This document shows, piece after piece, positions 9,493-13,465 of a DNA stretch of 64,000 nucleotides. Origin of the DNA: Halobium salinum (GTDB taxonomy: Archaea > Halobacteriota > Halobacteria > Halobacteriales > Haloferacaceae); contig NZ_JAODIW010000006.1 in assembly GCF_026586625.1 (NCBI RefSeq), positions 1,091,061 to 1,155,060 of the forward strand, given 5' to 3'. The position numbers and the translations under genes are program-made. How positions within the stretch are numbered: the stretch's first letter is position 1; each line of letters begins with the position of its first letter. Under the pieces are notes generated by a model. The model was not told the DNA's origin and made no database searches. It was given only the letters and a program-made list of their open reading frames with translations.

Positions 9493-9705
9493 TTACTCGT
9501 CGTTGAAGTCGCCTTCTTCGCGCTGAATCGTCTTGATTCGGGCGACCGTCCGCTTCAGTTCGCCGATGCGACCCGGGTTCTCCGGGGCGCCACCGGCCGC
9601 CTGCACGGCCTTCGCGTTGAGGATTTCCGTCTCCATCTCCTCGAGTTCCGCCTCTCGCTCGGCGGGCGTCATGTCGCGGATCTCCTCGGTGTGGAGGATG
9701 GCCAT
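9493..9705 (-). CDS. rpl29: Large-subunit ribosomal protein uL29
   Basis: 70 residues, a helical hairpin near the exit tunnel. [18 protein letters not shown] and the [15 protein letters not shown] segment match uL29. The ATG shares one base with the rps3 stop (TAATG). Confidence 0.96.
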
Positions 9706-10784
9706 TATTCGTCGTCCTCCGTGTCGGCCGCCGCGGAGCCGTCGGTCGACTCCTCCTCGTCGGCGTCGACGTCGACGTCGGCGTCCTCCTCACCCTCCAT
9801 CTCGGCGACGAGGTCGGCAGCCTCCTGCTCGACCTCCTCGTCGATGTCGGCCTCGTCGGCCTCGGGCGTGGTCTCTTCGACCTCGGACTCGTCGGCGCCG
9901 GCCTCGTCGAGGTCGGGTTCGTCCTCCTCGACGTCGCCGGTTGCCTCCGGAGCCTCCTGCGGTTCCGGCTCGGCGGACTCGCTGCGGGAGGCGACGTCGC
10001 CGGTCTCCTCGATGACCTCCTCGACGACGTCCTCGTCGATGACCTCCTCCGCGGACTCCTCGCCCGCGTGCTCGCCGGGCACGTCGTCGGCGTCCTCGCC
10101 CTCGTCGGGGAGCTTCTCGTCGTCGGGCTCCTCGAGTAGACCCTCGACACCCTCGCTGGGCTCGACCTGCTCGACGGCCTCGACCTCGGCGTCCTCGGCG
10201 ACGGCGAAGTCGTCGGGCAGCTGCGCACCCGGCGGGATGATCTTCACCGTGACGCCGATGGTGCCGAGCTTCATCACGGCGACGCCCTGGCCCGTGTCCA
10301 CGACGGACTCGGCGGGCTCGCCGTTGTGCTTGATGTAGCCGCGGTTGAACTTCTCGTCGCGCGAGCGGGCGCCCGTGACCTTGCCGTTGAGCTTGATCTC
10401 GGCGCCGAGCGCGCCGGCGTCCATGATGCGGTCGATGGTCGTGTGACCCGCCTTGCGGAAGTACCAGCCGCGCTCGAGCGCGTTGGCGAGGCGGTCGGCG
10501 ACGATGCGGGCGTTCAGGTCCGGCTCGTCGACCTCCTGTACGTCGATCTGTGGGTCATCGAGGTCGAATCGCTCCTCGAGCTCGCGGGTGACCTTCCGAA
10601 TGTTCTTCCCACCTTTCCCGATGACCATCCCGGGTTTCTCGGCCTTGAGCACGATCTGCGTGCCCATCGGCGTCTTGGCGACGTCCATGCCGCCGTAGCC
10701 GGCTCGGCCGAGTTCGCTGGCGAAGAACTCGTCGATCTGCGAGCGCTGGAGCCCGTTCTCGATGAACTGGTGTTCGTCTGCCAT
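9705..10784 (-). CDS. rps3: Small-subunit ribosomal protein uS3 with long acidic tail
   Basis: 359 residues. The KH domain ([18 protein letters not shown]) and the C-terminal S3 domain ([20 protein letters not shown], then [14 protein letters not shown]) end near residue 191. The remaining 168 residues are almost only E, D, A, V, P and S. Haloarchaeal uS3 commonly has an acidic extension, but this one is nearly as long as the folded part. uS3 lines the mRNA entry channel. The stop overlaps the rpl29 ATG by one base. Confidence 0.96.
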
Positions 10785-12408: not shown

Positions 12409-12660
12409 TCAGAACACCCCGATGCGCGAGGCGATCTCCTGTGCGTCGTCGTCCTCGCTCAGCGTGAGCGTCGCCTTCTTTCTCCCCTGCGGGGTCACCT
12501 GCGTGTTGAGCTTGACGACGGACACGTCGTAGCGGGACTCGACTTCCTCTTTGATCTCGGGCTTGTGCGCGTCGAGGTCGACCATGAACTGGAGCTTGTT
12601 GTCGAAGTCCATCTGGTTCATCGCCTTCTCGGTGACCAGCGGGTGCTCGATGACGCTCAT
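12409..12660 (-). CDS. rpl23: Large-subunit ribosomal protein uL23
   Basis: 83 residues. [19 protein letters not shown] and the FMVDLDAHKPEIKEEVE segment match uL23 at the tunnel exit, where chaperones and SRP dock. A strong Shine-Dalgarno-like GGAGGTGA lies 6 bases before the ATG. That ribosome-binding site sits inside a 21-codon micro-ORF whose stop codon overlaps this start. Confidence 0.97.
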   Translation of the reverse strand: MSVIEHPLVTEKAMNQMDFDNKLQFMVDLDAHKPEIKEEVESRYDVSVVKLNTQVTPQGRKKATLTLSEDDDAQEIASRIGVF

Positions 12661-12722
12661 CGGCTCTCACCTCCGGTGAGAACGATGAGGTCGTCGTACG
12701 CACCGCGTGCGACGGAACTCAT
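12657..12722 (-). CDS. 21-codon micro-ORF between rpl4 and rpl23
   Basis: The ATG overlaps the rpl4 stop as ATGA. The frame reads [20 protein letters not shown] plus a final Arg and stops at a TGA that overlaps the rpl23 ATG (CGATGA). It therefore fills exactly the only sizeable gap in the whole operon (58 bases). No family is recognised. It could be a real micropeptide, a coupling ORF that carries ribosomes from rpl4 to rpl23, or an accidental frame. The overlaps at both ends argue against pure chance but do not show that the peptide is stable. Confidence 0.5.
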
Positions 12723-13465
12723 CGGTCGGCCACCTCCTCGACTGCGCTCTCGGTCCACACCGTCAGGCGGCCGGCGTGCGTGCCGGGCGCCAGGTCCTCG
12801 GCGTTCACGTCGCTCGCGGTGGCGACGTCGACGCCCGCCAGGTTGCGGGCGGCCTTCGACGGCTCGCCGCTCGTGACGAACAGGACCGAGGTCGGGCGCG
12901 TGTACTTCCGTCCGCGGGTCTTCCCGCGGCCGGCCCGAATTCGGCGGTTCTCGTCGGCGTGCTCGACGTCCTGGTGGATGCCGACGGCTTCGAGGAACGA
13001 GACGACCTCCTTGGTCTTCACGAGGTCCTCGAAGTCGTCGCTGACGACGAGCGGGAGCGCGAGGTCGTCGTCGAAGCGGTGACCGCGTTCGGCGACGAGT
13101 TCGGCGTCCGTCGTGGCCGCGATGGCCGAGCGGACGGCGAGCTTGCGCTCCTTCTTGTTCACTTTCTTCCCCCAGTCCTTCTCGGCTTTCGGCGGGTGGG
13201 CCTTGCGGCCACCCACGGTTTGCGGGACGCGGCGACCCTGCCCGTTCTCACGGGGGACGTGGGCCATGCCGCGACCGGAGCCGAGGGACTCTGCGGGCGT
13301 CCGCATGCCCGCGTAGGGGTCGGCGCCGTACTTCTGCTTCCGGTTTGCCTGGGCGGCGACGACGGCTCGCTCGATGAGGTCCGGCCGGTAGGCCGTCTCG
13401 AATACCTCGGGCAGGTCGAGCGTGCCCGCGTCCTCGCCGTCCAGGTCTCGAATGTTCGCTTCCAT
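12719..13465 (-). CDS. rpl4: Large-subunit ribosomal protein uL4
   Basis: 248 residues. The tunnel loop appears as [20 protein letters not shown] and [19 protein letters not shown], followed by [19 protein letters not shown]. These are the standard archaeal uL4 features. It starts 3 bases after the rpl3 stop. uL4 is an rRNA-binding assembly protein. Confidence 0.97.

Follow-up and report, generated by a model that had tools for sequence, protein, structure and literature searches.

In a 64,000 nt stretch of the Halobium salinum genome (contig NZ_JAODIW010000006.1, positions 1,091,061 to 1,155,060 of the forward strand; here called the window), the space between the ribosomal protein genes rpl4 and rpl23 is filled exactly by a micro open reading frame (micro-ORF) of 21 codons, which is probably one copy of a dispersed, structured and apparently mobile element of the Halobacteria that bridges coupled genes in a tolerable way, in the manner of the mycobacterial interspersed repetitive units (MIRUs). 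The homology and dispersal of the copies, their structure, the maintenance of the frame, the existence of filled and empty sites and the flanking repeat were observed directly. The element, which at 57–114 nt from start to stop is too short for a transposase, sits in sense orientation at RTGA stop/start overlaps inside operons.

The rpl4–rpl23 junction

In the window, rpl4 (12719–13465; Pfam PF00573), the upstream gene of the coupled pair, ends at 12719 and the downstream gene rpl23 (12409–12660; Pfam PF00276) starts at 12660, leaving 58 nt between them; these genes and all further features given below are on the minus strand. The 66 nt frame that fills this gap (12722–12657), recognised from its reading frame and its homologues, consists of 21 codons and a stop and has an ATGA at either end, such that its ATG overlaps the TGA of rpl4 and its TGA overlaps the ATG of rpl23. 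The Shine–Dalgarno sequence of rpl23, GGAGGTGA, lies inside the micro-ORF at 12674–12667. Near the end of rpl4, GGAGGTGG (12730–12737) resembles a Shine–Dalgarno sequence for the micro-ORF and, in empty junctions, precedes rpl23 itself. The gap, the frame with its two overlaps and the enclosed Shine–Dalgarno sequence had all been described in the original prediction, with which these coordinates agree.

An accidental ORF in a random gap is suggested by the shortness of the frame, as the single case is only mildly improbable (given an ATGA at either end, about 1/3 for the frame multiplied by the probability that 20 codons contain no stop, a rough estimate that was not computed). However, this explanation is contradicted by homologues with covarying structure and lengths divisible by three, together with which the micro-ORF is far beyond chance, and the likelihood of an accident is negligible.

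Dispersal among haloarchaeal operons

When the 66 nt were compared by blastn with 391 genomes of the class, with at most two candidates scored per genome, full-length relatives were found at rpl2–rps19, etfB–etfA and trpB–trpA; at E ≤ 0.1 there were 326 genomes with a match, most of these judged to be short chance matches. A covariance model built from 28 copies (R1) matched 66 of the 391 genomes at E ≤ 0.01, and a broader one from 56 copies (R2) matched 101 of them, in 49 of 86 genera and at 148 places, at E ≤ 1e-4. Among 392 genomes of the phylum, 22 were matched at E ≤ 1e-3, all belonging to the family or order of the window, though the number of the 392 lying outside that order was not stated. 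The E values derive from a short calibration and, because the best 12 candidates per genome were scored in searches of more than 40 genomes, the counts are lower bounds. A deeper search of 16 genomes yielded between 3 and 7 matches per genome at E ≤ 1, counting weak matches and those on the reverse strand. The window contains one copy, the next match in the covariance search (E 0.0057) being its own reverse strand, and the genome from which it comes contains two, the other lying between two moeA-like genes (L224).

The downstream proteins of the 136 copies that show the full pattern described in the next section fall into 38 clusters, 19 of them with a single copy, and as the downstream frame is short in four clusters, about 34 gene junctions are represented. 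They include rpl4–rpl23, rpl2–rps19, etfB–etfA, sucC–sucD and trpB–trpA. NCBIfam backed trpBA, argB–argD, leuCD, purSQ, lysX–argC, rpl24e–ndk, a metE-like pair, a moeA-like pair and sucD, and returned no match for the partner of the RPA-like protein in L212 or the downstream protein of L234; the remaining names, including argC–argB, were assigned by eye. One argB–argD copy is that of Haloferax marinum. Since the same element is found in metabolic operons, a regulator specific to the ribosomal operon was ruled out.

Both R1 and R2 include the ATGA columns and so favour such ends. A control model restricted to the 54 inner positions, without the ATGA ends (R3), was run on 39 genomes, 35 of them carriers and four without R2 matches. 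It gave 48 matches at E ≤ 0.01 and none in the four genomes without R2 matches; of the 41 at E ≤ 1e-3, all except G375:C1:2359947 (L226), which has no overlap at its ends, were known junction copies. The seven between 1e-3 and 0.01 comprise two known junction copies (G244:C1 and G078), two incomplete ones (L196 and L198) and three others (G219:C2, G381:C1:2724622 and G274:C44). As R3 finds the junction copies without the ATGA ends, their location is not merely imposed by the model.

Weak R1 matches away from junctions (E above 1e-4; L197, L199–L201, L204–L206 and L208–L210) may be chance matches or other repeats and were not counted. A further weak match, L207, appears by eye to be coupled via TTGA. 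L200, L201 and L206, from genus g28, which includes Haloferax marinum, show a repeat with a similar first hairpin off gene overlaps (CTTCCGTCGGACGCTTCGCGCCCGACGACG), possibly a non-coupled relative. A phage origin of the element was rejected because 50,697 phage records yielded nothing at E ≤ 0.1, and a plasmid origin on finding matches in two of 72,556 plasmid records, both at etfBA of Natrarchaeobaculum sulfurireducens. In plasmid locus L258 (NZ_CP024046.1, 93475–95953) no gene is listed in the 58 nt etfB–etfA gap; this gene table is incomplete and the original record may differ.

Anatomy of the copies

At 136 of the 148 places, the element has a start/stop overlap on either side and its length is a multiple of three. 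The left overlap of these 136 copies is ATGA (119), GTGA (15) or ATGG (2), and the right one ATGA or GTGA (68 each). The commonest length is 66 nt (50 copies), followed by 87 (39), 63 (12), 60 (7), 90 (6), 84 (6) and 69 nt (4), with rare copies of 75, 78, 108 and 57 nt (two each) and of 81, 93, 96 and 114 nt (one each). Because divisibility by three was part of the filter for the full pattern, the fair count is that among matches with RTGA at both ends, where it holds for 134 of 136, the exceptions being 59 and 47 nt long. Two of the 136 counted copies stop one codon early (ending in TGATGA or TAATGA) and still share one base with the start that follows; the rest have an open frame.

In 127 of the 136 copies, an upstream frame of 60 codons or more ends at the junction, and 132 are followed by a frame of the same minimum length. 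Short frames follow in four clusters, which comprise the first members of tandem copies in L314 and L335, together with L341 and L353, where the short frames may be further copies of the element. The tandem copies (L314, G341:C9:13325-13458; L335, G278:C1:907573-907706) are arranged head to tail and share an overlap, giving three successive ATGA overlaps and what would, judging by this arrangement, be a natural multi-step reinitiation relay. At leuC–leuD in genus g13 (L179, L184 and L237), a longer micro-ORF starting from an upstream TGATG and ending in the same LTGGETR-type tail before leuD was seen by eye, and in L179 the frame from this TGATG further upstream has 32 codons.

Two conserved hairpins

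The strand of the element in the window folds at −48.5 kcal/mol (z −3.24), with none of 200 shuffles as good. Hairpin 1 (element positions 9–31; 12692–12714) has nine modelled pairs, one mismatch position and a 3 nt loop, with compensatory changes in seven of the nine pairs and 95.9 % of cells paired. Hairpin 2 (element positions 34–67; 12656–12689), identified from folding and covariation, has 15 pairs and a 3 nt loop, CTCATCG TTCTCACC pairing with GGTGAGAG C CGATGAG. It covers the rpl23 Shine–Dalgarno sequence, which falls in its loop and 3' arm (12667–12674), and the rpl23 start codon, and its internal CTCATCG (12683–12689) is complementary, by sequence and folding, to CGATGAG at either end of the element.

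In an alignment of 28 rows, 27 of them distinct (A2), 92.6 % of cells are paired and 12 of the 24 pairs have changed on both sides, in 38 cells; none of 500 shuffles reached any of these measures, and shifting the partner destroyed the pairing signal. A larger alignment of 56 rows (A4) shows compensatory changes in 18 of 24 pairs and 165 cells, but was fitted to the model and is biased towards it. RNAalifold, unaided, gave the same two hairpins, with hairpin 2 shorter. The two hairpins are conserved at the level of structure. In hairpin 2, the pair formed with the first base of the downstream start is U-A in 38 copies, C-G in 10 and something else in seven; the base in the hairpin changes along with the start codon, and thus the pairing follows ATG or GTG.

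This tracking of the downstream start, and the fact that several of the junctions encode partners of one complex, are what would be expected if hairpin 2 and the micro-ORF were a translational control module of benefit to the host, enforcing strict coupling of the downstream subunit or its attenuation, and spread by recombination for its usefulness rather than as a selfish element. However, its presence varies among species of one genus, the genes at the junctions serve translation, energy metabolism and several biosynthetic pathways, and short gene overlaps are reported to be enriched for subunits of complexes in any case (PMC10666635), making such a module unlikely. An RNA insert that is spliced or processed out of the mRNA, for example an archaeal bulge-helix-bulge intron, would also be in keeping with two hairpins and a flanking direct repeat, but lengths divisible by three without earlier stops would be needless in a segment that is removed, and Rfam gave no match up to E = 1 in positions 12500–12900. 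We regard such an insert as highly improbable.

A maintained frame and its probable role in coupling

A functional micropeptide encoded between the two genes could be argued from the absence of a stop ahead of the terminal codon in 134 of 136 copies and from alike peptide starts such as MSSV and MTSV. However, 43 near pairs, which are not independent, have 33 synonymous and 144 nonsynonymous single changes, a synonymous share of 0.186 compared to 0.272 expected without selection, and no purifying selection on the peptide was found in them. The third codon position is also not the most variable (entropies of 0.876, 0.875 and 0.745 by codon position), the sequence follows the hairpins, and Pfam had no match for the peptide, a weak test at 21 residues. 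On the strength of the substitution counts from these non-independent pairs a functional peptide was judged very unlikely. The open frames with lengths divisible by three, taken with a synonymous share below the neutral value, indicate that the frame is kept and the peptide is not.

In Haloferax volcanii, an intergenic distance of 13–14 nt cuts reinitiation and one of 22–23 nt nearly abolishes it, such that reinitiation is lost near 20 nt (PMC10666635). A 58 nt insert without a bridging frame should, therefore, uncouple a gene pair, and a bridging frame with two overlaps would let the element enter coupled pairs that it would otherwise uncouple. In the simplest mechanism, a post-termination ribosome would pass from the first gene to the micro-ORF and on to the second gene by two successive reinitiations, opening hairpin 2 as it crosses. 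As modelled, hairpin 2 may block independent initiation and, because it covers the downstream Shine–Dalgarno sequence and start codon, translation of the downstream gene probably depends on this crossing, most of it being presumably by ribosomes that have come through the micro-ORF. The proposal that ribosomes pass from rpl4 through the micro-ORF to rpl23 is thus consistent with the lengths of the RTGA-ended matches and with the limit of about 20 nt in Haloferax, but what was seen as peculiar to this junction appears to belong to an element that is not.

Filled and empty junctions

The rpl4–rpl23 insert was present in three of 30 L23 loci of relatives (the window's own, L026 and L029; 58 of 60 genomes were matched and 30 loci fetched) and in three of 80 named loci (Halegenticoccus tardaugens, H. 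soli and the metagenome-assembled genome QS_9_68_17), while dozens of other junctions carry the element, and the micro-ORF can no longer be viewed as a fixed property of the rpl4–rpl23 junction. In the remaining loci the end of rpl4 runs directly into an ATGA start (one row, L093, contains Ns, and the upstream stop was not confirmed row by row), and blastn found no element at the rpl4–rpl23 junctions of L083 and L097. Compared to the empty junction, the window has an inserted segment of 62 nt (12656–12717), the exact ends of which are ambiguous within a repeated TGAG. The original prediction had held that differing junction lengths among relatives, with frameshifts or stops in this frame, would point to an accidental ORF; the lengths do differ, but through the gain or lack of the element as a complete unit.

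On a tree of the L4, L23 and L2 proteins from 119 loci, at least 11 changes between filled and empty are needed. The loci were obtained via tblastn and assigned as filled or empty by hand, with L020 dropped, and ten of the 16 filled rows were added as search matches, two being from one genome. Within the genus of G163 the junction is filled in one of 11 genomes, whose L4, L23 and L2 proteins share 97.0 % and 96.2 % identity with those of two empty congeners.

At sucC–sucD in genus g13, four of the 30 junctions read are filled (39 genomes were matched and 30 loci fetched). Empty ones mostly read CCCAATGAGCATTTTC and filled ones CCCAATGAG...GCGTGAGCATTTTC, with GTG where the empty ones show ATG. 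On a tree of 27 of these 30 rows, the filled rows require three changes, which is not clearly fewer than when the labels are shuffled (3.9 on average, with 63 of 500 shuffles as low), and the nearest relative of each filled row is empty. The element copies differ at 2–3 of 90 nt, whereas third positions of sucD differ at 30–57 of 270; hence, the element is either constrained or recently exchanged.

The flanking repeat and signs of mobility

The element has TGAN at both ends, in the window as TGAG (left copy, 12718–12721; right copy, 12656–12659, from comparison of the ends). The base after TGA (N5) is the same on the left and right in 121 of 136 copies, compared to a mean of 56.5 and a maximum of 74 in 1000 shuffles, and with one copy taken per cluster the agreement is 33.4 of 38 against 15.1 (shuffled maximum 24). 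For the 136 copies, agreement is moderate at the two bases before ATGA (73 and 71 vs 54.7 and 47.4) and slight at N1 (81 vs 68.1). Most of the other positions compared show small excesses (N-5 to N-3 and N6 to N9, matched by between 1 and 33 of 1000 shuffles) that probably stem from kinship of the copies; in a preceding comparison of 56 unique copies, agreement stood out at N5 and the two bases ahead of ATGA and nowhere else.

The recurrence of junctions across families would also be expected if the elements were old residents of fixed junctions, passed on by vertical descent and repeatedly lost through exact deletion between their short direct repeats. Deletion is favoured where hairpins accompany direct repeats, and the 11 changes on the L4-L23-L2 tree could include many losses. 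However, at the single junction rpl4–rpl23 N5 agrees in different forms, left and right being G/G in seven copies, C/C in two and A/A in two (C/G in the other two). Half of the clusters hold one copy each, and some nearest neighbours are found at other junctions, as in families f7 and f12, an rpl4–rpl23 copy and an etfBA copy of f7 having only four differences in 54 positions. Ancient elements with repeated losses are, thus, an improbable explanation. A mobile element remains the reading that we favour and, tentatively, an internal guide might recognise its target, the stop/start overlap, through base pairing, the same segment also locking the downstream start; the element would then represent a new class of structured mobile element, in which the MIRU strategy was reinvented independently in Archaea. 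One seven-base segment would, in that case, serve both the choice of insertion site and the dependence of the downstream gene on translation of the element.

Several points weigh against a mobile bridging element. Translation of the frame and movement as DNA are both inferred, no insertion event having been observed, and the element has no known transposase or autonomous relative, no search aimed at them having been made. Twelve of the 148 matches lack the full pattern: four that precede leuD or argB have the start of the frame off its modelled place (L179, L184, L223 and L320), four have no left overlap (L192, L195, L196 and L243), two have no right overlap (L198 and L358), and L362 (G318:C2:2363580) and L367 (G354:C1:1793314), with RTGA ends and lengths that are not multiples of three, may have decayed or may be chance matches. 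In the set of 56 copies, seven were discordant at N5; as judged by eye, the internal guide matches the base on the left in L168, L171, L174 and L180, which simple target duplication does not predict, the right base in L119 and L121, and neither in L185. Among 47 copies of 66 nt, those sharing both junction and family are the most alike, with a mean of 11.8 differences over the 54 inner positions, compared to 17.3 when the junction but not the family is shared, 17.7 when the family but not the junction is shared and 19.6 otherwise (the means are slightly off, as L123_1499, from rpl4–rpl23, was unlabelled). The recurrence of the same junctions in different families would, from sequence comparison, suit inheritance or transfer with loss as well as fresh insertion.

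If the element does bridge coupled genes, it would explain why some short gaps in haloarchaeal operons, those of the essential ribosomal proteins among them, have no gene annotated, and the natural pairs of filled and empty junctions, some within one genus, offer a test of reinitiation through a 20-codon relay and of coupling enforced by a hairpin.

Elsewhere in the window, a 359 aa frame (9705–10784), which by eye appears to be rps3, has a very long C-terminal tail rich in Asp and Glu.

Comparison with known systems

No description of such an element in haloarchaea was found by title in the open-licence PMC literature. In IS200/IS605 elements, a guide pairs with the cleavage site, which the internal segment complementary to the end sequence recalls. 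The PATEs of Haloquadratum are likewise transposase-free and very short, down to 52 bp, with palindromes near both termini, where hairpins 1 and 2 also lie, and a short targeting sequence at one side (PMC3119063). However, the element carries a coupling micro-ORF in sense orientation at stop/start overlaps, and the part of the PATE report available to us mentions no coupling ORF. PATEs are also said to cause no target duplication (PMC3119063), whereas the element has a TGAN direct repeat, though identical target and end sequences could also yield TGAN at both ends. The enterobacterial RU (127, 168 and 103 bp) are, like the element, small mobile or apparently mobile intergenic repeats with ORFs, for which the accessible portion of the source does not mention gene overlaps at both ends (PMC2759123). 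Native termination–reinitiation at ATGA in Haloferax uses the same −4 nt overlap as the ends of the micro-ORF, but between ordinary genes (PMC10666635, PMC6728339), whereas here an inserted short ORF creates two successive overlaps.

The haloarchaeal element resembles the MIRUs in being a short repeat dispersed over many intergenic sites (148 places, 101 of 391 genomes, 38 clusters), in having an ORF that overlaps the stop and start of the flanking genes (136 of 148 matches), in its position at start codons or DTGA-type sites in the orientation of the operon (TGAN ends; empty and filled sites) and in its tandem copies at some loci (L314 and L335). MIRUs insert at DTGA sites of operons, in the same orientation and also as tandem copies, and to our knowledge are without obvious dyad symmetry. 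The element differs in having two strongly covarying hairpins, one of them over the downstream Shine–Dalgarno sequence, an architecture we do not know from MIRUs, and in occurring mostly as single copies with few tandem pairs. A 2025 review presents MIRUs as repeats, apparently mobile, whose insertion at start codons leaves their ORF coupled at −4 nt, which limits harm (PMC12548453). By analogy of architecture, the haloarchaeal element would work like a MIRU without necessarily being one and, if so, the ability to enter coupled gene pairs while leaving them intact has arisen in Archaea as well.
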